This document shows, one piece after another, positions 218 through 62,254 of a stretch of 64,000 nt of DNA; within the stretch, counting starts at the first letter, position 1, and every line of letters begins with the position of its first letter. Source of the DNA: Phyto melanocephala (lineage: Eukaryota > Arthropoda > Insecta > Diptera > Rhinophoridae); contig OW799233.1 in assembly GCA_941918925.1 (NCBI GenBank), forward strand, positions 2,968,001-3,032,000, written 5' to 3'. The position numbers and the translations under genes were made by a program. The notes below the pieces were generated by a model, which did not search any database, was not told where the DNA came from, and saw nothing but the letters and a program-made list of their open reading frames with translations.

Positions 218-268
218 TTTAAATCAGCAAATATTTTATTTTATTAATGGAGAGGAGTACATTTGCAC

Positions 269-1252
269 CGATACCAAAGAATAACGGATATCTTACCGAT
301 AGGAAATATTACAGAATTAACATGTGATAAAATCCCGATGAGATATGAGAATATTAACTGCATCACCATTATACCGGAAGAGGGAGAATGGGATGAGATA
401 ATCAGGATGGGAAACACCCACGGAATCGATCTTTATACAGACGGTTCAAAGATTGGTGACCAAACTGGAATGGGCTTATACGACATAAGCCGAAATAGAG
501 GCAAATACTTCCGTCTACCAGATCACAACACTATTTTTCAGGCTGAGATCATGGCGATTACGGAAGGAATTAAATGGATAAAGGAAACGAATAGCGAAAC
601 TCCGATTCGTATCTTTACGGATAGCCAATCAGTGATTAAGACATTGAGAAAGGAGAAAGTTGAATCCCGGAACGTTTTGCAATGCAAGAGTGAGATAAAC
701 TCATATGCAAATTGTGAACATCTGGAGATAATATGGATACCAAGCCATCACGGGCTGATCGGAAACGAGAAAGCCGACAAATTATCCAAAATGGGAGCTC
801 TTTTGAGTACTATAACTTTGGAGAACGCCAAACCCCTTAAACGATTTAAGGATGAACTTAAACGTTGGGCAATGGAAGAACATGTCAGAAAATGGCAAAG
901 CACTGATGTCGGTAAGGTGACAAGAACACTCTGGGGTGACCCAAATCTTGGGAAGTCAAAGGAGATTTTGAGACTAAGTAGACCTACACTTAGGAAATTA
1001 ACCGGTGTAATTACAGGTCATACGGAGTTGAGAACTCATTTAGCACGCATGGGATTATCTGAGGAGACGACATGTAGAGCTTGTGAGGAAGAGGATGAGA
1101 CCCTGGTACACTACCTCTGTCATTGTCCTGCGTTTGGGCATATTAGACGCGAAAATTTTACAGTAGATAATATGCCGAACTTGGAATACCTGGGGAACTC
1201 GAACTGGAGATCCATAAGGCGTTACATTGAGGGGACTGGTTTCTTGGACTAG
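269..1252 (+). CDS. LOA/I-type ORF2 C-terminus: RNase H plus CCHC knuckle (partial)
   Basis: The frame is open for about 327 residues and lacks its own start; a TTG at 263 lies in the target duplication, so the true N-terminus (endonuclease and reverse transcriptase) is missing. Numbering from that TTG, the RNase H domain spans about residues 55-180. The catalytic acidic residues are D60 (YTDGSK), E95 (FQAE), D120 (FTDSQS) and D172 (NEKADKL), with the usual histidine near residue 163. A C-x2-C-x8-H-x4-C zinc knuckle lies at residues 271-288. In a complete element RNase H would remove RNA from the cDNA hybrid. No frameshift or stop is present. The GC content is higher than the surrounding DNA. 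Without RT this copy cannot move by itself. Confidence 0.85.
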   Translation, partial: RYQRITDILPIGNITELTCDKIPMRYENINCITIIPEEGEWDEIIRMGNTHGIDLYTDGSKIGDQTGMGLYDISRNRGKYFRLPDHNTIFQAEIMAITEGIKWIKETNSETPIRIFTDSQSVIKTLRKEKVESRNVLQCKSEINSYANCEHLEIIWIPSHHGLIGNEKADKLSKMGALLSTITLENAKPLKRFKDELKRWAMEEHVRKWQSTDVGKVTRTLWGDPNLGKSKEILRLSRPTLRKLTGVITGHTELRTHLARMGLSEETTCRACEEEDETLVHYLCHCPAFGHIRRENFTVDNMPNLEYLGNSNWRSIRRYIEGTGFLD

Positions 1253-3645: not shown

Positions 3646-3956
3646 CTGAAAATATACAGATAAAAAATAACAAATAATATAGAACAAATACCACCAAACA
3701 ATGAGTCAGAAATGTAAAAGTTTAGTAAATAAACTTTGACAAATCGCTTAAATTAATGATCTGCCATGAACGAATTTTATTAGATTTTTTTAATTCGAAT
3801 ACAATTGTCAACATAATAGACATCTAGGGCGTCACTTAAATACAACTTAGACATAACTGAATGTAAATTTATAACGTGTCGTAAATTTTCAATATTTTAC
3901 AATTAAATTTTTAAAAGGTTAAGAGTTTTGCAATTAACAATAAAATAATTTTAAAT

Positions 3957-4028
3957 CCCGATCAAAAGAGTGCTGATGATGAAACCGTTGCTGGTTTCGA
4001 AAATGCATTCCACTCGGCTGGTGTCGGG
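3957..4028 (+). ncRNA. Hammerhead-like self-cleaving ribozyme, copy 1 (type I, open stem I)
   Basis: The 72-nt segment folds as a type I hammerhead. The outer stem I is CCCGA (3957-3961) with TCGGG (4024-4028), then an internal loop, then inner stem I GAGTG (3968-3972) with CACTC (4011-4015). The core CTGATGA (3973-3979) is followed by one extra T, then stem II GAAACC/GGTTTC (3981-3986 with 3993-3998) with a 6-nt loop, then GAAA (3999-4002). Stem III is the tiny palindrome AATGCATT, and TC precedes the predicted cleavage after C4010. A very short stem III is typical of animal and Penelope-element type I hammerheads, which often act as dimers. The extra residue after A9 is unusual but known from a viroid hammerhead. 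An A-run begins 38 bp downstream. Confidence 0.75.
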
Positions 4029-4080
4029 ATAATAAGATACAGTATATTCTTTCATTACCACAAATAAAAAAAAAAAAAAA
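3957..4080 (+). mobile_element. Short A-tailed retroposon carrying the hammerhead
   Basis: The ribozyme is followed by about 37 bp and then a pure A-run (about 4066-4080). The same order, including the word CACAAATAAAAA before the A-run, occurs after the copy at 39534. No similarity is seen upstream of the ribozyme in the copies, so the repeated unit seems to start close to stem I. No target duplication was found. Confidence 0.5.
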
Positions 4081-9715: not shown

Positions 9716-10376
9716 ACTAGCTAATACCCGTTGTGCTTCGCCACCCCAAATTTTAGTATTTAATTCATATGGCAGTTGCCACGACCATTATTGTTAATGC
9801 ACCCATTTTTTCCATAAATGTTTATTTGAATATCAAAGTTGCTTTTGCAAAATTTTACTACTCTAATCGATATTGTTTTCCAAACATACGAATTTAAGTA
9901 TTTAATGCATATGGTAGGTGCCACGCCCACTATTTTTAATGCATCCATTTCTCGCCTAAATGTTTATTTGGGTGTCAAAGTTGCTCTTGCAAAATTTTAC
10001 TACTTTAATCGATATCGTTTTCCAAATATACGAAATTTAGTATTTAATTTATGTGACCATGCCTACCATTGCAAGTCTGCCCATTTTATACCCAAATGTT
10101 CGTGTGGATGTCAAAGTTCACCGTACTTAATTTAAAGACTCTAGCTGCATTAACTTTCGTGATATATAATATTTAATACTTATTATTTAATAGGGCGTGG
10201 CACCCCGCCCACTTACAATTTCAAACCAAAGTATAGCCTGTAGTTCCTTCCAGACATACAGAAATTTCAAGGAAATCGGTCCAGCCGTTTAACCGTCTAT
10301 AAAGCACAAACAAACATACAAACATATAAACATATAAACATACAAACACACATTGATTTATATATATATATAGATT
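9716..10376 (+). mobile_element. Non-autonomous interspersed repeat with three 141-bp tandem units
   Basis: It opens with ACTAGCTAATACCCG and closes with TATATATAGATT, a start/end pattern common to short RTE-tailed or SINE-like elements in insects. Tandem units of about 141 bp begin near 9752, 9893 and 10035, each opening with TTTAGTATTTAAT and holding a GCCACG(A/C)CCA block. The 3' part reads AAATCGGTCCAGCCGTTTAA, followed by CATACAAA repeats. No coding frame. Classification as RTE-derived SINE versus Helitron-type cannot be settled here. Confidence 0.65.
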
Positions 10377-11191: not shown

Positions 11192-13897
11192 AACAAGTAG
11201 GAGCACTATATTCGGCTGTGCCGAATCTTTCATACCCACCACCAATTTTGTGTACATTTAAAGCACAATATTTATTATTTTGTTAATCGCTATAGAATAA
11301 TCTCTTTATTATAAAATATGTATCACTTTCTTTGTAGAGGGTGGTTAAATTTTAAGGGCCCATGTTTAAGGTGAACCACATGTAACCTTCAACTATTTTC
11401 TTGTATTTCATTTGACATTTCTCAATCTCAGACTAACTCAATTTGAACCGTGGAAAGATACGCAATCGAGCAACGCTTTTATATATTAAAGATTTTTATA
11501 AAAATGGGCGTTCAAATCAAAATTAATTTTGTGCACTTCGTAATTCTTTTGGTCAACATAATCGTTCGAATTCGACCACAATCGTGAGAATTGTAAAAAA
11601 TATTTAAATGTCTGCAAAGCAGGTCTGTATGAAATGCGAAAACATCTGTGAATGCCATCTTAGTTCGTTGAATGGGAAACATTGCTGTTTTTCACGATAA
11701 CGTGGCAAGAGCAAGCAACCTTGACTCATCATCGTGCCCAACAATCGAGCATCAACAGAGTCATTGAAAATTTGGACTATCGGATCGTGGTGTGCCGCCT
11801 AGGTTGGGGGGCCATTTGGCCGATATTTTGTTCCATACATAATTGAAGCATACAAATATTATCATTATAAAAATAAATGATAATAATTTCATAATAATTT
11901 TATTCAAAATCAACATAGTCCCTTAAAATTAAACCACCCATTATAACTTCGGTATGCTAGTAAAATGTTTTCGTAAATTTAGTTTTTCAATGAAAGTGGC
12001 CGTTAAAATACGCGTGTCAATAAAGTTTCTGCTAATAAACATAACTTAGATATTTCAATATAGTCCCTTAGTATTCCAAAATCTTTATTCATAGAGAATT
12101 TACATGAATTTAAGAGGAAGAAAGTTAAATTTTAAGGGCCACAGGGTGATTTAAAATACACATTCTCTGCATTTTTCTAAAACGGGAAATTTATTAGTAA
12201 GATTTTGATTTTTAAACTTCTATAACATTTTGCTTTTAAAAGATTTTGAAACGAAATAAGTTTTGTATAATTTTAAAATTTGTTAGCCATTAGTACATGA
12301 AAATAAATTGTTTATAATGTTTAGAGATAATTTTTTTTGACTTAGGTCAAAATTTTCCTAAATTCGCATTTTTAATAGAGCATAACTTAAGGAGAACATA
12401 AGCATAAGTTGTTAGCATGCCATCTAGTAGTTGCTAGTAGAGTCATCTATCTTATCATCTTTATCTTATATTTAGCTACAGTACAATAAATGGTGCAGTG
12501 TAAGATGAATAAATGCTAATATATATGACTAATATATTTTTATAAAATTTTAAGGAAAAAAGTGTGCGTGGCACATCTATTTTCCGTTATAACGAAGACT
12601 TTGACCAAAAAGCCATGTTTGCAAAATTTCAGAATTTGAAATATACACTGTGCGGTATAAATTTTCGTACATTTTTATCTATAACTCTTTTCCTAATTCA
12701 TAGATTTAAGCGATTTTCAGGGAAAAATATTCTTTTGACTCGATAAATATATATTCGAAGTTTCATGACTCTACGTTTATGCGTTAGGACACAATTCAAA
12801 AGTGAAAGTGGGCGTTATAGTAGGCGTGTGAAAGTTGTTTTTGCTAATGAGTACAACTTAGGTGTTTCAATATAGTCCTTTATTATTCCAAAATCTTTAT
12901 TAATAGAGAAATTATATGAATTTTAGGTAAAACGTTATATGGGAGGTGGGCGTAAAAAAGGGCGTGGCACCTTAATTTTTTGGCATAGTAATGAAATTGC
13001 CTAGGGGGATAGACGTAGCAAAATTTATCATCATACCTCTAATTTTAGCGGTTTTATGAGCTTTTAAATTTCATTAACGGTAGATAACGTGAAAAGTGGG
13101 CGTTATAGTAGGCGTGTCAAAGTTATTTTTGCGAATGAGTACAACTGAGGTGTTTCAATATAGGCCTTTATTATTCCAAAATCTTTATTAATAGAGAAAT
13201 TATATGAATTTTAGTTAAAACGTTATATGGGAGGTGGGCGTAAAAGTGGGCGTGGCACATTGATTTACCGTTACAAGAAAGCGTGTCACCAAAAACCAAA
13301 GTGTGCAAAATTTCAGAGTAGTACATCCAATTTTGTTGCTTTTATGACGTTTTTGTTTTTAAATATACCAAAAAATACACTGTGCGGTATAAATTTTCGT
13401 ACATTTTGATCGATAACTCCTCTCCTAATGCATAGATTTAGACAATTTTTGGGGGAAAATATTGTCTTTACCCAGGAAATATATATTCGAAGTTTCATGA
13501 GTCTACGTTAAGGCGTTTGGACACAATTCCATTTTATTCGATATTCGAAGGACACGGTTTTTTCGACCTACTCTTGCTTTTCGAGCTATAACTCTCTTCC
13601 TAATATTCCGATTTAGCCCATTTTCAATACCAAACAAACCTTGTCTATAAGAAAGATTCTGGCAAAATTTGAGCCCCCTAGCTTTTTCGGTGCGACCTCT
13701 ATCGTGCTTTCAACAGACGGACAGACGGACAGACGGACAGACGGACAGACGGACGGACATAGCTAGATCGTCATAAAATCAAACCCCGATTCAGAATATA
13801 TATACTTTATGGGGTCTAAAATGGATATTTCGATGTGTTACAAACGGAATGACAAAATGAATATACCCCCACCATTTTTTTGGTGGCGGGTATAAAA
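11192..13897 (-). mobile_element. Long Helentron-associated (HINE/mini-me-like) element with internal tandem units
   Basis: The left end is AACAAGTAG followed by the palindrome ATTCGGCTGTGCCGAAT. The right end has the GACG/GACA microsatellite (about 13716-13760, GTCY on the minus strand), the conserved core ending TACTTTATGGGGTC, GTTACAAACGGAATGACA, and a terminal hairpin with ACCA/TGGT arms. This layout is that of DINE-1/mini-me elements, which belong to the rolling-circle Helentrons. Inside are diverged repeated blocks: a unit opening GTGGGCGTTATAGTAGGCGT at 12808 and 13097 (period about 289), with an older relative near 11996, and a TGTGCGGTATAAATTTTCG unit near 12648 and 13380. No Rep/helicase frame, so it is non-autonomous. 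A mariner derivative is nested at 11337-11941. Confidence 0.75.
11337..11941 (+). pseudogene. Internally deleted mariner inserted in the Helentron-like element
   Basis: The 605-bp insertion has inverted ends GGGTGGTTAAATTTTAAGGG (left) and GGGTGGTTTAATTTTAAGGG (right, reverse-complemented), with TA on each side (11335-11336 and 11942-11943), the mariner target signature. At 11450 a frame begins with GTG where ATG is expected and reads ERYAIEQRFYILKIF, matching the start of mariner transposases. A later stretch near 11730-11780 resembles the helix-turn-helix region in a broken frame. The catalytic DDE/D domain is absent. A fragment of the same terminal sequence recurs at about 12127, perhaps a second solo end. 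Confidence 0.7.
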
Positions 13898-16610: not shown

Positions 16611-16686
16611 GCCGTATTCATAAAAAATATTTTCAGTTTTTAAGGCTTATTTGACAGATGTTGAACAGAAAATTATCAAATAAGAA
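16611..16686 (+). mobile_element. Truncated copy of the 115-bp foldback MITE
   Basis: It begins GCCGTATTCATAAAAAATAT and continues through AAGGCTTATTTGACAGATGTTG, matching one arm plus the loop of the full copy at 17476-17590. The other arm decays after ATCAAATAAG. Confidence 0.65.
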
Positions 16687-17475: not shown

Positions 17476-17590
17476 GGCCGTATTCATAAAAAATATTTTA
17501 AGTTTATTGAAGGCTTATTTGAAAAATTTCTCTACAACATCTGTCAAATAAGCCTTTAATAAACCTAAAATATTTTTTATGAATACGGCC
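17476..17590. mobile_element. 115-bp perfect-hairpin foldback MITE
   Basis: The arms begin GGCCGTATTCATAAAAAATA and its complement; about 47 bp pair with two mismatches around a loop of about 21 nt. The RNA or single strand would form a near-perfect hairpin. Copies exist at 16611 (partial) and 26570 (same total length). No coding frame; no clear target duplication. Confidence 0.8.
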
Positions 17591-21216: not shown

Positions 21217-22042
21217 TTATACCCTTCACACAGTGAAAACGGGTATATAGAGGATTGTCATTCCGTGTGAAATTTCTACAATTTTCATTTCCGACCCCAT
21301 AAAGTATATATTTTCTGAAAGTTATGAACAGGGGAGTCGATTAAGCCCTGTCAGTCTGTCCGTCTGTCAGTATGACCATCTGTCCGTGTGTATGTTGAAA
21401 TCAACTTTTTGAAGCCCCCCGAAATCGCTTGGACCCGGCTAAGGTACTAGATAATCAGAAATATTCGGGAGTAGATCGGTATTGAAAATCAGAAACATCG
21501 GTTCATAAACAACTGAGATATGAGCAAAAACCCACACTACCTCGATTTTTTTTTTTCACAAAAACAACATTACAACAACAACATACATACATACATACAA
21601 ACTTGTATATTGGTTAAAGTAAACGTGTAATCAAATCCCAGCTGAGCCAAAAAAATTTTTTTTTTTATTTTTTTATATTTTTTTTAAAAAATTTTTTTTT
21701 ATTTTTTATTTAATATATTATTTATGGTTTTATTATTTTTTTTTTAATTTTTTTTTTATTTTTTTTTGTATATTTATTATTTATATTTTAATTATTTTTT
21801 TTTTAATTTTTTTTTAACTTTTATTTTAAAATTTTTTTTTAATTTTTTTTTTTAATTTTTTTTTAACATACATACGTTAATTTTTAATTTAACAATGGGA
21901 TGTTTTTATATATGTATGTTTTTTATATGTACGTATTTCATATGAGATGAATGGTGATACAAACTACTGTTATTGCATGACTACACGTTGTGAAGGGCAT
22001 ATAAGATTCGGCATGGCCGAATATAGCACTCTTACTTGTTTT
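21217..22042 (+). mobile_element. Helentron-associated (HINE/mini-me-like) repeat, second copy
   Basis: It starts TTATACCCTTCACACAGTG with the paired GGGTATA forming a terminal hairpin, then GTCATTCCGT, the core TTTCCGACCCCATAAAGTAT and a GTCTGTCCGTCTGTC microsatellite (about 21352-21372). A T-rich tract of about 200 bp (21650-21870) follows, then the palindrome ATTCGGCATGGCCGAAT and the end ACTTGTTT. No coding frame. Confidence 0.8.
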
Positions 22043-25912: not shown

Positions 25913-26425
25913 ATCTATCTATCTATCTATCTATATATATAAAAGTGAAACTCTGTGTGTGTGTGTGTGTGTGTTAGCTATAGACTCCGAAACTGTAAAA
26001 CCGATCGGACTCAAACTTTAACAAGTTGTTGTACACATACCAGGGAGTGTTTATGGGTGGAAAAAAGTGGGCGGGACCACGCCCATAAACAATTAGTTAT
26101 CATTTTAAGCTACTTGCACATGACCGATTTTTCTGAAACTTTGCACACATATCGAGCTCTCATGACTAAATAATTTCATGATAAAAAAAGTGGGCGGGGC
26201 CACGCCCCTAAAAAAGTTTTAATATTGAGGTTCTTGCACTGGACCGATTTTTCTGAAACTTTGCACACATATTGAGTTGTCATGACTAAAAATTTCTTGA
26301 TTAGAAAAGTGGGCAGTGCCACGCCCATTTAAAAAGTTATAATTGTTAGCTTTTTGCACTTGATATGCAATTTAAATTCAGAATGCATTTTCATTCATTA
26401 AGGGGCGTAGCAACGCGCGCCGGGC
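25913..26425 (+). mobile_element. Non-autonomous repeat with three 120-bp units and GC-palindromes
   Basis: It starts with ATCT repeats (25913-25932), a GT microsatellite (25955-25974) and TTAGCTATAGACTCCGAAAC. Units of 120 bp begin near 26122, 26242 and 26362 with GACCGATTTTTCTGAAACTT (third copy decayed). Each is separated by a hairpin such as GTGGGCGGGGCCACGCCC. It ends GGGGCGTAGCAACGCGCGCC. Such start and end sequences recur in insect genomes in non-autonomous, possibly Helitron-related repeats. No coding frame. Confidence 0.6.
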
Positions 26426-29069: not shown

Positions 29070-29165
29070 GAGTATTTTAAAATTAAATTCAAATGTCAAC
29101 AGACAGTGTTTCAGAGTGGTCATATTGTTATTCTCCAGAAAATTGTGAAAAAAATAATATAGAAA

Positions 29166-30372
29166 ATGAGTTTATCAACGAAAAAAGTGACAATACGGGA
29201 ACCTCTGATTTTGAGTGGAGGATCGGAAGATATCTTAAACGAAGGATGTCTACCATATCAAGAAATAGTTCTAAACGAATCAGAAGAGGAAATTCTTCCG
29301 AATACTCAAGTGGTCGAAGCGAAGATTTCGAAAGAAGTGAAGAAAGTGACAGACAAACAACAGAAGAACAAGAAGAAGGGGAAATTGGACGAGGATACAG
29401 AAGTACAAGTTACTCAGGTAATTCCGAAAAAAATGAAATTAGATATAGATCAGGAGATAAAGAAAGCCAATACAATATCAGAGGAAACAACTCATTTGTC
29501 CCTATTATCTCTTTTGATGATAATTTGGACGAAGGACTTTCTTCTTCATATAATTGGAACATTAGAGACTTTGATTTGTCTCTCCTTGAAGATGAAGGAG
29601 TACGAGGCGAAGAAGTTTCTACACATATTGATGGACTCCCTTCAAGATGTACAGAAGATCTTAGTAAGCCAAAAGAGAGAGTTAGGAAAATGTTCCTTGA
29701 AAACTTTGGTAACTCAACTATTAAACAGCGAGTGGTCCATGATGTATTTGGAACAAGAAATGAGTATGGAGACATCAAATTGGATAACGAACAATTACGC
29801 AGAAAATTTTACGGGGCCATCCTCCTCATCTGTGTAAGTGGAGACTATCGGCATCGTATGAATCATGAACTGTATGAGCTGTACGCCGACATTGACATTG
29901 TTAGGCGCATAAAGGTACAAAGACTGCGCTGGCTTGGACATGTCGTGCGGATGGATGAAGAAGCTTCAGTAAGAAGAATTTTCGAGTATGATCCCGAAGG
30001 TGTCCGCAGAAGAGGACGACCGAAGCTCCGATGGAAAGATCAGGTCCAACAACACCTAATGGACCTAAATGTTCGAAATTGGAGAAGGAGCGCAGAAGAC
30101 CGAAGCGCCTGGAAATCTATTCTTTCCTCGGCTTAAGACCCTTCAGGGTTGTAAAAAGCCATCTATTGATTGATTGATCCTCCTCATCTCATATCATGGC
30201 AACCACATCCACATTATCCACGACTGCCAATACTCCAATAATTCCTGTAGATGTGCATTTATCCAGTACTTACCAAGAGAAATCAATAGAAGATATTCTC
30301 GAAGAGTCGTTCCAAGTTGGAAGTTCTCTGATTTCCATACTTCAGAGAACGATAAAAATCTGGCTTTTGTAA
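29166..30372 (+). pseudogene. Second, overlapping virus-like frame (NS2-type), interrupted
   Basis: An ATG at 29166, 73 nt after the first, opens a different frame that stays open across the whole 5' part. The same retrotransposon insertion introduces a stop at 29837; after the insert the frame is open again until TAA at 30370-30372. The product would be lysine- and glutamate-rich in its first half. Two long overlapping open frames in AT-rich DNA are not expected by chance, and the layout matches densovirus NS2 within NS1. No domain can be assigned. Confidence 0.5.
29832..30176 (+). mobile_element. 345-bp 5'-truncated RTE-type non-LTR insertion
   Basis: It is flanked by the 13-bp direct repeat ATCCTCCTCATCT (29819-29831 and 30177-30189). 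It encodes the C-terminal tail of an RTE-like reverse transcriptase: RLRWLGHVVRMDEEA, then RRRGRPKLRWKDQV and NVRNWRRSAEDRSAW, ending with a stop at 30134. The 3' end is a GATT/TGAT repeat. By chance it is in frame with the first virus-like frame, giving a 347-codon chimeric reading frame. The intact frame and perfect duplication suggest a fairly recent insertion, later than the virus integration. Confidence 0.9.
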
Positions 30373-31584: not shown

Positions 31585-31650
31585 TTCGATCAACAAGTGC
31601 TGATAATTAAATCGTAGTTGGTTTTGAAAATTCATTTCATTTGGATATAT
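31585..31650 (+). ncRNA. Decayed hammerhead-like ribozyme, copy 2
   Basis: AAGTG, CTGATAA (G8 to A), T, AAATC..GGTTT and GAAA occur in the same order and spacing as in copies 1 and 3. The core substitution and a broken outer stem make catalysis unlikely. It shares the extra T after the core with the other copies. Confidence 0.55.
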
Positions 31651-34600
31651 AATTCACCAAAATAAACAAAAATAGTGTGAGTGTAACAATAAATCTTTTA
31701 TGTTTATTATAAATAAAATTTCTAGTTTTTAATTAAAAATATTTTTTTTAATTAAAAACAATATTTACTTGAACATAAAATGTATATTCCGTTTAGTTCA
31801 AATCATGTACAGATATGTGTTGAAAAAAAATTTTTTTTTTTTTATTTAAATGCATGGCGTTTCTCATAAACACATTTGAGAAACACTGTTGAAAAGTGTG
31901 TACAAGCAAGTTTTCATGTCTCTGTAAACGAGTATAAGTTTAAGTGTATAAACTGCTAACATTTTTTTATTAACGTTTTTTTTTTACTCTAGAATAAAGT
32001 ATGCCTTTTCGCATACAAACACGTTGTACTAACATGACACTTCAGCAGTTAATTGGCCACTGTAATTTTATTATCCGCCAGGGCATGAGGGATAAAACGA
32101 GGCAAGAGAAAATATAAAAGTAAATTATGTTAAATATTTACAATAATAAAAAAAAACTCAAAAAATACTCATACACTTGCAAAAATGCAAATTGTCTTCA
32201 ATGTAAATGATAATTATCAGTTTACATCATTTATAGACATAAATTATTGACGTTTTTATTTAAGCAGCCATGTGGATGAGTGTACATGAATGACTGTATG
32301 CGAGCTGTGAATTGACGGACAGCAGGGAATGATATAAAAACGTAAATAATTTTTTAAATTATTTTTTTACCAGATACAGAGTACAGTTTTTATTTTCTCT
32401 TTTGTAATTTTCCACCAATTATCCAACGACATAATGGTTTGTATTAAATAATGTCCATAGACTCAATTTCCAGAAAATAAAAAAAAAAATGTTAAATCCT
32501 TAAAGGAATTTATATTCGCAGTACACATGTATGTCCATACAACAAGTGTGTGAATAAATTAATGTTTGAGGGTGGCTGTTGGTTAAGAAGATGAGGAAGA
32601 AGAGGAAGTTGAAATAACAGTAATAGCATTTATTTACTGGCAACATGACTTATCTTAATTAAGGGGTTTATTGTTTAAATGCTTCGGAAGAAAAGGCGAT
32701 GAATAATGCAATTTAAGTTAACTAAGTTTGGAAGTTTAAGTTGATCAATACAATAAATCTACAAAATTAATTAACAAAAATCAATAGGGGTTCAAAAAAA
32801 TGCAATTAAACTTGTTGGGCATACGTTAATTAAGAGTCAAATATTTTATGTGTAGCAGGATAAATTGATTACTGTGTAAATGTAATTTGTAAATATTTTT
32901 TTTATCTATTAATAAACAAAAATTAAATCAATTGCCTCATTCAATAAGGACCGTGACACTTCCCTTACAAATCAAATATATTAAATGGCATATCTGCACA
33001 ACTATGAATGTTATAGGTTTTAAATTCTATGTAATGGGCTACGATATCAGTTTACAGAAAATCGAAGGTATCACAGAACGCGGTGATAACATTCTTTGAA
33101 ACAATTAATTCAAACAACTCATCTTTTGCTATGACCGCTGGAAAAAAACTAAAAAATTTTAATGGTTTTTAAAAGATGGTGGTGCTTAATATAGAATTTA
33201 GGTTACGTATGGCAGAGACTAGCATAGAACCCACCTTAAGTCGATGTTCTCTAACTAAGGAATTTAAGGATTCAAGTGCCTTAATAAATATGACCGGATA
33301 TCCCAATAAACCAAAATGCTTTAATTTAATTTTAAGCAAATTTGCTATCATAAGCCTTAAGTTTAAAAAATGTTGAGAATATATTTTGAAACAATTATTT
33401 ATCAAACGAAATTAAACCGTTGTAATAAACCTCTTTTCGTAAGCTTGTTTTAAGCTTTAAAATAGAATTAAATAATTAATGTTTCAGCTTTTCGTTGCTT
33501 ATCTATTTACTCATATAATATATTAGAGGTAATATGCTAATTACTAAATTTATATCACTAATATCATTAATGCTGTTTTACATTAAAGATTATATTTTAC
33601 AATTTTGTATATATAAAAGCGTGTCCCACAATTAAGGCAAACTTTTTTAGGGTTACCAGCACATTACTGCACACATGGCAGCAAATTCAAATCTAGTGGG
33701 AATTTTGGGACATCTTTTATATACTAGACATATACATACATATGTAAACTCATAATACTATTATGTATAAAAATAATAATACTGAAACAGCACTTATTGC
33801 TAAAAAAAAAAAAAAAAATCTGTTGTCTATGCTATTCTCTAGTAACATTTCTTTTCTGAGTTGGGTTGTTGGGTAAGCAGCACACTGTTCACAAGTTTTA
33901 CAGATTATGTGTATGCAGTCATTACAAATAAAGCCAATAAGTATTTCGATACACTTAAAAATAAAAAAATAAATTAATGAAAAACTAAGTTCTCGATTCA
34001 CTTAAGTTTATTGACATCTCATAGTAATGCCAATAAATTGTTAGGAAGGCTAAAGCATTCCAGGTCAAACTTAAAACCAGTGACAAAAATTAATGACTTA
34101 AAATCTTTTATTTGTAAAATCTCTACATTTTTAAATCATTTATCACTTGTTCTTTTTTTATTTTTAACATTAAACCTCAACAGAAGTAAACAAGAGGAAA
34201 AAGTTACCCGTTTTAATTATTCTAAAAATGTTTCAACTTTAATTGATAAAGTATTTAAAAGTCTTAGAAAACAAAATACCAGCTGTAATAAATTATATGA
34301 TGGTATTGGTAAACGCTGGTGTTTAAGATACAAACTGAACATAAACCAACAACGAAAAAGGCGCAAGCAAAAAACAAAAACGTAAAAAAGAGTTGTTTAA
34401 AATTTCTTAACCTTTTTTGTGCGCTAATTAAAAAGTGAAATAAATACTTTGTAACCGCACTCTTAAATACCACTTGACATTCTAATGCATTTAAGTTTTA
34501 CAAATTTTCAAATTATTTCTTAGACAACAACAACAGCAGCAGCAAGAACAAAAACAGCTTTAAAGTAACAACAAGAGTCAAGTTTTCAAAACTGACAAGC

Positions 34601-39200: not shown

Positions 39201-39533
39201 CATTATCAAACTGTTATTTTAAAAGACCCATTGATGTGTATGCAATTGATACCATCCTCTATTATATGCTTGCGGCTGTTGAAATGCAGATTTGATAACA
39301 AGTGAATGTTTTTTAAACATCTACCTTACTGGTGGCTAGAGCAGGACAATAAAAGTGATAAAAATGAAAGATAATAACAAACAAAAGTAAAAGGGTTGCT
39401 GTTGGGCAAAAATTTCAATCTAACTCATTGTGGTAAAAATATTTGAAAAAGGAAAAACTAAAGTAGTTACCGAATTCAATTAACTTAAGTCCCGTGAGTT
39501 AAATAGATGATATTTACAACCAACATGCACCCA

Positions 39534-39603
39534 CCGATCAATAAGTGCTGATGATGAAATCGTAGCTGGTTTCGAAAATGCATTCCACTCGGCTAGTTGT
39601 CGG
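39534..39603 (+). ncRNA. Hammerhead-like self-cleaving ribozyme, copy 3
   Basis: Outer stem I CCGA (39534-39537) with TCGG (39600-39603); inner AGTG (39544-39547) with CACT (39586-39589). Core CTGATGA (39548-39554), one extra T, stem II GAAATC/GGTTTC (a U-G wobble where copy 1 has C-G), loop GTAGCT, GAAA (39574-39577), stem III AATGCATT and predicted cleavage after C39585. Differences from copy 1 keep the stems: the outer stem is intact and stem II changes to a wobble. An A-rich tail follows 40 bp later. Confidence 0.75.
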
Positions 39604-41028
39604 TAAAAATATAATTTTTCAGATTATTCTTTAATTTATCACAAATAAAAATAAAAAAAATTCTTTGTAACAATAAGAATGTTAATATGAAATCGAGCCT
39701 GATTAAAATTTGAATATTAGTTTAAACAGAAAAGTTAGATAAAATAAAAATTAAATTTACATCTGTAACTAATAAATACGTGGCTATTTTCAATCTACCT
39801 TATGTTTTATTTTAGTCAAATTTAAATCTTTTTCTAAATCAAAATATTGTACATTAAAAAAAAAATCGTAAGAGTAAACAAGGCTTAAATGGATGTCATT
39901 AGTATTAATGTAATTATCGAGAAAAAATAAAGAGCGCATAGAACGAACACAAGTTTCGGGCTTAAATTCAACAAATTTTTAATTCACTTGATTTGGTACG
40001 ACTTGTATAGAATTGGAAGCTTTCTTCCCAATCGATGAAATTTTGAATGCACTCTAGTACCTTTAATATGTGTAAACAGTATCTCATAAGTTTATTTTTT
40101 GTTACATAATGTTTTGTCAAAATGCTGCCAAATTTTGACTAGAAATAGATTGTAAAAACTTTTTTTGTGCACACAAAAATATCCTTGTAAAAAAAAACTT
40201 TCAAATTTATTATCCTAATCACAATTGATATTTTAGTATGAGTATTGATAGTAACAATCATCTGCTATTGCTTCACGGCATCAGCATTAACACCTAGTAT
40301 GAGCAGCAGCAACAACAATATTTTTTCAAATTAGATTAATTGCTGAACTGTTTGCTTGTTTTAATAGCAGTTGGGGCTTTTACTATTTTAATTGAAACAA
40401 ATTTTATTTTTGTTTTAAATCTAATACAGGCTGTCGAATATTTATTACCACGATATCCTAGCCAGGACAACAATACAAAACCGAATTAACACACACTGTT
40501 GAATACTTGTGATAACTGTATACACGTTGATATACATATAAGTATTAACATTAGGACTATAACCAAATTTTTCCCATAGTTCCACGGAATGTTCAATGAT
40601 GTTTTATCAATGAAAAGCATTGTCTTGGGTTATTTTACAAAAAAAATTTACGTACCGAATTCATTTTCTAAAACAATTTAATTCATATACAAGTGTAATA
40701 TTATTAAGAGAACATATTTTAACAGCAATCTTATAGCTTCCTTTAATTATTATTGTAGGATACAAATTATAAGTTCACAGGACGTTATAGATTTTTTATT
40801 TTTTGTTGGATATATATCCTGCACAATTATAACACCTCTTGCTGATTTTGATTAACGAATCATCTTCTAGCCAATGTTTAAGAAGCATTTCTTGGCGTTT
40901 TTCAATCTTTTAAAAATAGTAAATATGTATTATGATAAACAATTTTGTACCTTTATTTTGCAGCTTTGTTTTTGTTTAAAAAAATTCGAATGCAATCTTT
41001 AAGCATATAAATACAAATTTGAAACTTC
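39604..41028. other. Intronic DNA, nothing recognised
   Basis: Begins with the A-rich tail of the hammerhead retroposon (about 39644-39660); otherwise AT-rich with no supported gene. Confidence 0.4.
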
Positions 41029-41293: not shown

Positions 41294-41390
41294 TGGTATT
41301 TAAAAAAAATTATCTTAATTTTTTGCATTTTTTGCTCTTAAATAAAAGTTTGTTTCTTTGTATTCGCTTTACAATGCCTTCTTTTATTTA

Positions 41391-42366
41391 TTATACCCTT
41401 CACCTGTGGTGCACAAGGGTATATATATATAGCTTTGTCATTCCGTTTGTAATTTCTACAATTTTCATTTCCGACCCCATAAAGTATTAATTTTCTGAAA
41501 GCTTATGAATATGTCCGTCCGCCCGTCTATCCGTGTGTTGGTTGAAATCAACTTTTAGAAGCAACCATATGTTCCTCAGATCTGTGTATGGTATCAATCT
41601 TTGGAAATATCCAGGAATGAATCGCTATTGAAATTCAGCACAATTGCCTCATAACTTTCTGAGATATGAGCAAATAAACACGATTGCCTCTGTTTTATCA
41701 AATATTTTTACAACCATAATTAAAATTTTTCAGTATTTCAATAATTTATAGGTACCTTTGCTACTATTTATAGATATAATATTCCTTTAGAGATATTCGT
41801 GAAAAATTTTGGATGAAGCGGACTCTAATCGGTAAAGTTATAGGCAAAATTTATTTTTTTTAAATATATATTCCAAAAATTTACAAACAAAAATCATTTT
41901 CTTTCAGCTTCTAGACAACCAAAAGAGTCAATATTGGTACCATATGAACGGACTTGACTAGAGCAATATAAGCAGTATAAAAAATTAAAATTCATGTTAG
42001 CCGCCACTACAAAATGGCGGAAAATAAATTTACATATGGGTCAAATCTGGTATTTTAAAATGTAACTTTTTAAACCCCCTCAATATTGGTATCAAATGAC
42101 CAGTAGAATACAGTAAATTATTGAAAAATTTAAAATCGAAGATGGCGTCTAAAACAATATGGCGGAAAAATTTTTTTTAACCTTACCAATGTGGGTATCA
42201 AATGAAAGGGCTTGACTAGTAGAATGCAGGTAACTACGTACAAATTCAAAATCGATGATGGCGTCAGAAATAATAAAGAAAAATTGCGTATAACCTGAAA
42301 TATAGTACATGATGGTGAAGGGTATAATCAAATTCGGCACGGCCGAATATAGCACTCTAACTTGTT
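41391..42366 (+). mobile_element. Helentron-associated (HINE/mini-me-like) repeat, third copy
   Basis: It starts TTATACCCTTCACCTGTGGT with the complementary AAGGGTATA forming a hairpin, then GTCATTCCGTTTGTAATTTC, the core CCGACCCCATAAAGTA, GTCCGTCCGCCCGTC, and ends with the palindrome ATTCGGCACGGCCGAAT and ACTTGTTT. Two or three diverged internal units contain GATGGCG and AAATGGCGGAAAA. No coding frame. Confidence 0.8.
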
Positions 42367-60257: not shown

Positions 60258-61052
60258 AACAAGTAACAGTGCAATATTCGGCCGTGCCGAATCTTATATA
60301 CCCTTCACAACGTGTAGTCATGCAATAACAATTGTTTGTATCACCATTCGCCTCATATAAAATACGTACTGAAACATCCCATTGCAGGATTATAAATTGA
60401 GTTTACGTATGTACGTTTCCAAAAAAAAAATTAAAAAAAAAATATATTAAAAACAATATATAATAAATAATAATAATATATTAAAAATAAAAAAAATACT
60501 AAAAAAAAATTTTAAATTTAAAAAAAATTTTAAATTTAAAAAAAAAATTTTTAAAAAAATTTAAAAAAAAAAATTTTAAAAAAAAATTAAAAAAAATATA
60601 TAAAAAAAATAAAAATATAAATAATATATAAAATTAAAAAAAAATTTTTTTGGCTCAGCTGGAATTCGATGCCACGTTTACTTTAACCAGTATGTATGTA
60701 GGTTGTTGTTGTAATTGTGAAAAAAAACGAGGTGGTCGTGGTTTTTTGCTCATATCTCAGAAAGTTATGGGGCGATTGTGCTGAATTTCAATAGCGATTC
60801 ATTCCTGGATATTTCCAAGAGATTGATACCATACACAGATCTAAGGAGCATATAGTTGCTTCTAAAAGTTGATTTCAACCAACACACGGACAGACAGGCA
60901 GACGGACAGACGGTCAAAGCTTAATCGACTCCTCTATTCATAAGCTTTCAGAAAATATATACTTTATGGGGTCGAAAATGAAAATTGTAGAAATTACAAA
61001 CGGAATGACAAAGCTATATATACCCTTGTGCACCACAGGTGAAGGGTATAAT
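60258..61052 (-). mobile_element. Helentron-associated (HINE/mini-me-like) repeat, fourth copy
   Basis: In reverse orientation: AACAAGTAACAGTGCAATAT, the palindrome ATTCGGCCGTGCCGAAT, an A-rich tract (60420-60650) mirroring the T-rich tract of the copy at 21217, GGCAGACGGACAGACGG (about 60898), the core TACTTTATGGGGTCGAAAAT, AAACGGAATGACA, and the terminal hairpin TATACCCTTGTGC..GGTGAAGGGTATA. No coding frame. Confidence 0.8.
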
Positions 61053-62254
61053 AAGTGCAATAATAGACCGCTTTAACAAACATAAATATAGTTAGCCCGT
61101 TAGTTAGAAAAATTTTATGTAACGAAATCGACTTTATTAAAATTTACCGTTTAATGTCGCTACGAATGCCTTAATTTGACTCTAGATATTGTTTTGTCTC
61201 TTTATATATATGACCTCCCTACTCTGGCTTTTATATCTCAAAGTTAGATCAATTTCACATTGTTATGATTTCACTTACTTACATTTAAATAATGTTTAAT
61301 GCAAATATTGTTTTTAACATTTTTTTATTTTATTTGTGAAAGAAAAAGCGATTTAAATTTAAATACAAGCCCAAAACCATCCGTCAGTCGAGCAGTCATA
61401 ACAACTAGTCATTTAAATTCATATAAAATCCAAAAAAACAAAAATTATTATAATTCCAAAATTGTTGTTAAATTTTTTTCAAGGAATATTGTATTAAGCC
61501 ACTTGACATGTTATTGTTTAATGCTTTTCCTTTACATTGTTTCCATTTTTTATTTAAGATTATATGCTTAAAACAAATATATTTTTTTTTTGTTTTAAAA
61601 TATTTTTACACACAACATGAGTGGTGGAACGTGGCTTTGTAACAAAAAAAATTAAAACGAAATATGAAAACTAATTGACACTTCAATGGAATTTAAGTAT
61701 GCGTTATCGTAAATACGAAAATAACAATAAACAAAAAATATAATCTTAGTTAAAATTAATCATATTGGCAAATATTTAATTTAAGCTAAAAGAAAATATC
61801 AACTCAAAGACGCACACGAAAAGTGCCACTGAATATTTTAACTTAATGTAAAATTGTTTATCACTTTCAATAATAAAAAGTGACACATGGTTTTCAAATG
61901 ATAAAATACATCAAATTAGGGAGCAATATATTATGATTGAGTTTTTTGATTATCATCATATGATGCAATAATCTCATTGTGATCGCTCATTGTCATCAAT
62001 TAATTTCATAAAATCATAATGTAATCATTTTAATTATGATATGATGTCACACAACCACAAATTGGTTTAAACTTATCATAATATAATCTCTAATAACCAT
62101 GAAAATTTTACATATTTTCTTAATGTTATTTCACGTAGTCGTAATATTACTCCCAATGAATTATAAAATATTTACTATTTACTAAAACCTATTGCTTAGT
62201 TTGGCTATACGTTATATTGATTTTACTTTACTTTTCGCTACAAAAAATTAACAC
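61053..62254. other. AT-rich DNA with ATGAT-rich stretch
   Basis: From about 61925 to 62090 ATGAT/ATCAT words dominate and could fold back; no element ends recognised. No gene. Confidence 0.4.

Follow-up and report, generated by a model that had tools for sequence, protein, structure and literature searches.

A-tailed repeat and its copies in the window

The 64-kb window, by which we mean the whole stretch of DNA that was analyzed, contains three copies of a short A-tailed repeat, all on the forward strand. BLAST recovered these copies, as did nhmmer and a covariance search run without filters, the models of the latter two having been built from the same three copies. Covariance scores were 99.2 bits for copy 1, 97.4 bits for copy 2, and 69.3 bits for copy 3. 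The next match scored 11.8 bits, and neither nhmmer nor the unfiltered covariance model found a fourth copy with a convincing score in the window.

Copy 1, delimited by BLAST and alignment, lies at 3956-4080 (+) and consists of a hammerhead motif, a spacer, and an A-run. Copy 2, at 39533-39660 (+), has the same layout, with an intact hammerhead at 39533-39605. BLAST aligned 3958-4079 of copy 1 with 39534-39660 of copy 2, with identity in 108 of 130 columns. The two copies can be aligned from the foot of stem I via the spacer to the A-run (ending at 4080 and 39660, respectively) and their upstream flanks cannot be aligned, giving a shared 5' border at stem I; the unit is therefore about 125 nt long. 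Copy 3, at 31586-31672 (+), is decayed. Its hammerhead part, at about 31585-31652, reads CTGATAA, such that G8 is replaced by A. In addition, a T-T mismatch replaces the closing G-C pair of stem II, H17 is a T (U in the RNA), and AATTCATT stands in place of the palindrome. The alignment shows no distal 3' strand of stem I for this copy. With its core broken, copy 3 is a dead relic.

All three copies are single dispersed units, and no tandem arrangement of the repeat was found in the window. A search of the flanks of copies 1-3 for shared exact words of at least 6 nt revealed no target-site duplication: there were two AT-rich words at copy 1, none at copy 2, and two 6-mers at copy 3, none of which lay at both borders. 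With three copies in 64 kb the family may be abundant, a single window giving no estimate of its size.

Two open reading frames were also characterized. The frame at 248-1252 (+) encodes 334 amino acids with a Pfam match to RNase H and a weak match to zf-RVT that falls below the cut-off; it probably derives from the 3' part of a LINE. A comparison of this frame (248-1249) with 472 candidate proteins gave no match at an E-value of 0.001. The frame at 29087-30136 (+) is partly similar to LINE-type proteins of insects and other organisms, many of them with a reverse transcriptase domain. Most of its 31 protein matches extend over about one third of the length or less, and the nine that are named come from Drosophila (four), tephritid flies (two), and, for the rest, a cockroach, a plant, and a coral. 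The fly proteins among these make a fly host plausible. No Pfam match was obtained for this frame.

Hammerhead motif, extra U, and the question of chance

Copy 1 has the components of a type I hammerhead at 3956-4029 (+). Stem I is in two sections. The distal section pairs UCCCGA (3956-3961) with UCGGGA (4024-4029) and is separated by an internal loop with 6 nt on one side and 8 nt on the other (3962-3967 and 4016-4023, respectively) from the proximal section, in which GAGUG (3968-3972) pairs with CACUC (4011-4015). The core box CUGAUGA (C3 to A9; 3973-3979), located by descriptor search, is followed by one extra U at 3980 (position 10), between A9 and G10.1. Stem II (3981-3998), supported by the sequence and by pair counts, has 6 bp formed by GAAACC (3981-3986) and GGUUUC (3993-3998) around the 6-nt loop GUUGCU, and leads into the GAAA box (G12 to A15.1; 3999-4002), which was likewise found in the sequence and by the descriptor search. 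The last A of this box opens a perfect palindrome of 8 nt, AAUGCAUU (4002-4009), which also entered the tandem-dimer energies given below. In cis this palindrome yields a stem III of 3 bp (A4002, A4003, and U4004 with A4007, U4008, and U4009) with the loop GC, and in a dimer it yields 8 bp. The A15.1-U16.1 pair is A4002-U4009, and H17 is C4010, a base other than G as type I demands, so that cleavage is predicted 3' of C4010. The three helices can be drawn in the type I manner, in which the chain ends lie at stem I, although energy folding favors other structures. An initial annotation had placed the core elements among three helices, had described stem III as palindromic, and had named C4010 as the cleavage base; sequence and descriptor search bear out the first two points, and the third follows as a prediction from the position of the motif. 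The corresponding landmarks of copy 2 (+) are CUGAUGA at 39548-39554, the extra U at 39555, and the predicted cleavage base C39585. The CUGANGA and GAA core boxes are complete in copies 1 and 2 and broken in copy 3.

The usual rule for the core, that no base stands between A9 and stem II, is violated in all three copies, where the extra T occupies positions 3980, 39555, and 31607. The initial report of this T in three copies thus holds for the base itself, but the third of these copies is not an intact hammerhead. A U at the extra position is reportedly named in two natural hammerheads in a 2001 JBC paper. The parallel drawn at the outset with the hammerhead of chrysanthemum chlorotic mottle viroid (CChMVd) is stated in a review (PMC3705267): as described there, the plus-strand hammerhead also has an additional base inserted at that site, between A9 and G10.1, which is an A in the viroid and a U in the fly repeat. 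The same review reports that replacement of the extra A by U increased trans-cleavage 3-4 fold (PMC3705267). Because the viroid change speeds cleavage, the extra U is more likely benign than harmful, and by analogy it is probably tolerated or mildly favorable for the fly motif.

How often such a motif would arise by chance bears on an alternative reading, in which the spread of the repeat has other causes and the hammerhead is a fossil or a chance likeness, inactive or incidental. On both strands of the window, a strict descriptor found the motif only at copy 1 and at 39548, and it found none in 60 order-1 Markov windows. A relaxed descriptor requiring at least 14 core pairs was matched in 25 of 7432 order-2 windows and, in a second series, in 30 of 8026; when the distal stem also had to reach 5 bp, 8 of 8026 windows matched. 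Motif quality of this kind is thus reached in about 0.1-0.4% of simulated windows, which means that a genome would contain chance matches and lends some weight to the alternative. At the lower figure, about 0.1% per window, isolated chance matches of equal quality are still to be expected when a whole genome is searched. Since this genome-wide rate is not negligible, weight must also be placed on the repeat context with its two intact copies, and against a fossil or chance origin every core base is kept in both of them. The motif patterns gave no matches in viral contigs or in bacterial and archaeal genome contigs, neither of which is a collection expected to contain fly repeats.

The Rfam hammerhead models, to which the initial annotation had looked for a check, were silent. 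No hammerhead family matched anywhere in the window at the gathering score or, at E-values up to 10, in the two stretches that hold copies 1 and 2. This silence is compatible with a fossil or chance motif, as is the broken core of copy 3. Preservation of the motif points the other way, provided that gaps are counted. Between copies 1 and 2 there are 5 substitutions and 3 gap columns in the 73 columns of the hammerhead, compared with 6 substitutions and 9 gap columns in the 45 columns of the tail. Fisher's test gave 0.18 for substitutions alone, which is not significant, and 0.004 with gap columns included, a figure in which gap columns are non-independent events.

Of the 53 cells that the named stems occupy over the three copies, 51 hold standard pairs, compared with 15-51% after sliding of the partners. 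Both sides have changed in two of the 20 pairs. One, in distal stem I, is C-G in copy 1 and A-U in copy 2, and the maintenance of this pair through a change on both sides speaks against a fossil. The other, at the end of proximal stem I, changes between G-C (copy 1) and A-U (copy 3), and copy 2 has an unpaired A and C there. Compensatory changes in the stems, a point raised by the initial annotation, are therefore present at two pairs among three copies but do not beat the shuffle control, which was equally high in 162 of 500 trials. With only three rows and so many shuffles as high, the covariation proves nothing. Taken over all of this evidence and the folding described below, we regard an inactive or incidental hammerhead as unlikely, though as an explanation to be taken seriously.

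UGAUGA is similar to the C box of box C/D snoRNAs. The repeat might on that account be a SINE derived from a C/D snoRNA or from a tRNA, whose boxes mimic a hammerhead. Permissive Rfam matches over the hammerheads on the forward strand were indeed all, or nearly all, to C/D snoRNAs, but their scores of 7.6-14.4 bits do not reach the cut-offs of 38-54 bits of these families. Inspection of the spacers of copies 1 and 2 revealed no CUGA D box; one CTGA lies 3' of the A-run of copy 1. An origin of this kind is highly improbable. A tRNA-type promoter was considered and rejected as a separate candidate, since its A and B boxes occur at chance level (20-83% of windows of 80 nt do as well), and ARAGORN predicted no tRNA gene.

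Folding, proposed cleavage in dimers, and known relatives

The minimum-energy fold of copy 1 (-23.7 kcal/mol) is more stable than the lone hammerhead drawn without stem III (-18.4 kcal/mol); in that fold stem II and the two sections of stem I survive, with additional pairs among the core bases. For copy 2 the minimum is -17.6 kcal/mol as against -7.6 kcal/mol for the hammerhead, and CUGA is paired elsewhere in the minimum. Dinucleotide shuffles folded equally well in 4 of 200 cases for copy 1, 46 of 200 for copy 2, and 97 of 200 for copy 3, so that copy 1 is more stable than most of its shuffles and copies 2 and 3 do not stand out from theirs. Both the more stable competing folds and the ordinary stability of copies 2 and 3 are what an inactive or incidental motif would give. 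The energy rules, however, omit the tertiary contacts of the core, and the energies accordingly neither prove nor exclude activity.

Dimer energies were calculated for a tandem of two units joined by an A8 linker. A double hammerhead with the 8-bp stem III had an energy of -46.7 kcal/mol for copy 1 and -23.7 kcal/mol for copy 2, compared with -37.9 and -15.5 kcal/mol for two single hammerheads drawn without stem III. The double hammerhead is thus lower by 8.8 kcal/mol (copy 1) and 8.2 kcal/mol (copy 2), although the tandem minimum is lower again, at -58.5 and -42.5 kcal/mol, respectively. Five pairs between loop 1 and loop 2 can be drawn in copy 2 and four of the five in copy 1. As 4018 of 20000 shuffled loops equaled copy 2, a loop-loop kissing helix is not claimed.

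The reading that we favor, and consider fairly probable, is that the type I hammerhead forms the 5' part of a non-autonomous interspersed repeat or retroposon, A-tailed and about 125 nt in length, that would cleave best as a dimer. It builds on the observed anatomy, the repeat structure, and the extra U of all three copies. If the hammerhead is active, the repeat RNA would be cut between C4010 and C4011. Stem III has 3 bp and a 2-nt loop in cis but forms a perfect 8-bp helix between copies, which makes a double hammerhead the most likely form. Such a structure could arise within a dimeric or multimeric transcript or from two RNA molecules. The two chains would then have stem III in common, and stem I of each active site would be built from the 5' strand of one chain and the 3' strand of the other. 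The repeat may spread by retroposition of its A-tailed RNA, conceivably with a circular RNA step.

Weak helices III have been described for other hammerheads. In many type I motifs a weak helix III is reported to block cleavage of the monomer but not of the dimer (PMC7761336). According to the same source, invertebrate type I motifs mostly have a stable helix III and good monomer cleavage, and those named as dimer-dependent are from amphibians (PMC7761336); the stem III of copy 1, with 3 bp around 2 nt, is unlike that of these invertebrate motifs. A minimal stem III and possible action as a dimer are shared with the hammerheads of Penelope-like elements (PMC11167929, PMC7761336), from which the fly repeat differs in its two-part stem I and its A-run. 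The fly repeat might nevertheless be a solo pseudo-LTR fragment of a Penelope-like element with its minimal hammerhead, since such elements are described as bearing tandem minimal type I hammerheads that may cleave as dimers (PMC7761336), and the hammerhead of one of them is reported to be conserved among lizards (PMC11167929). We think this improbable. The repeat terminates in an A-run, copies 1 and 2 have a common 5' border at stem I, and the Penelope-like variants are described as having no helix III or loop contacts (PMC7761336), unlike the two-part stem I found here. A Pfam scan of three of the 10 listed frames of the window gave one match, to RNase H, and none to a GIY-YIG domain of the Penelope type.

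The favored reading, of an A-tailed repeat with a hammerhead at its 5' end, has published counterparts among insects. Hammerheads of interspersed repeats with a palindromic stem III were described in Aedes aegypti (Perreault et al. 2011, PMC3088659), where one RNA remained uncleaved under the conditions of the authors and a requirement for a dimer was suggested (PMC3088659). The same paper describes repeat-associated eukaryotic hammerheads as mostly type I (PMC3088659). The Aedes motifs resemble the fly repeat in being dipteran, in belonging to an interspersed repeat, and in having a palindromic stem III with a loop that would permit dimer formation; they differ in that an extra U goes unmentioned in the passages compared, the comparison being one of descriptions rather than of sequences (PMC3088659). 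Type III hammerheads are reported from the housefly, fruit flies, and termites (PMC7936874). These too are hammerheads of fly genomes, but they open at stem III, whereas that of the fly repeat opens at stem I (PMC7936874). Metazoan non-LTR retrozymes, those of insects included, likewise place a type I hammerhead in a small repeat of low GC content (PMC7229834). As described, however, they are tandem repeats of 150-450 bp (PMC7229834); the units found here stand singly, measure about 125 nt, end in an A-run, and lack a visible target-site duplication.

The initial annotation knew of no description of the family in flies. This stands for the family itself, in that a literature search, with house-fly and blow-fly names outside its coverage, found no description of this A-tailed repeat family with an extra U; as a statement about flies it is too broad, hammerheads of dipterans having been published (PMC3088659, PMC7936874). 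What sets the fly motif apart is that all three copies keep the extra U and that each A-tailed unit stands alone rather than in a tandem array, which would make the putative ribozyme a variant of known insect hammerheads.

A more ambitious proposal is that the fly retroposon consists of tiny units, each a single hammerhead with an A-tail, in which a rate-enhancing extra U has become fixed and the 8-bp palindromic stem III lets only paired RNAs cleave. Cleavage would then sense RNA dimers or multimeric transcripts and set the unit length of retroposition. We offer this as speculation and think it doubtful in its full form. Were the motif active, it would be a naturally occurring hammerhead whose core has an insertion, located in a repeat of an animal, namely a fly, and could serve to test whether dimer-only cleavage aids the spread of small retroposons.

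Other repeats in the window

A 52-nt inverted repeat at 17476-17590, with arms that are 92% complementary and 11 nt apart, has related stretches at 16622 and 26583, and together these look like a small MITE-like family. A longer dispersed repeat is present in three copies, at 21233-21535 (+), 41379-41714 (+), and 60705-61063 (-), with TATACCCTTCACC terminal in two of them. Tandem repeats with periods of about 142 bp, 288 bp, and 120 bp occupy 9749-10048, 12805-13347, and 26061-26360, respectively.
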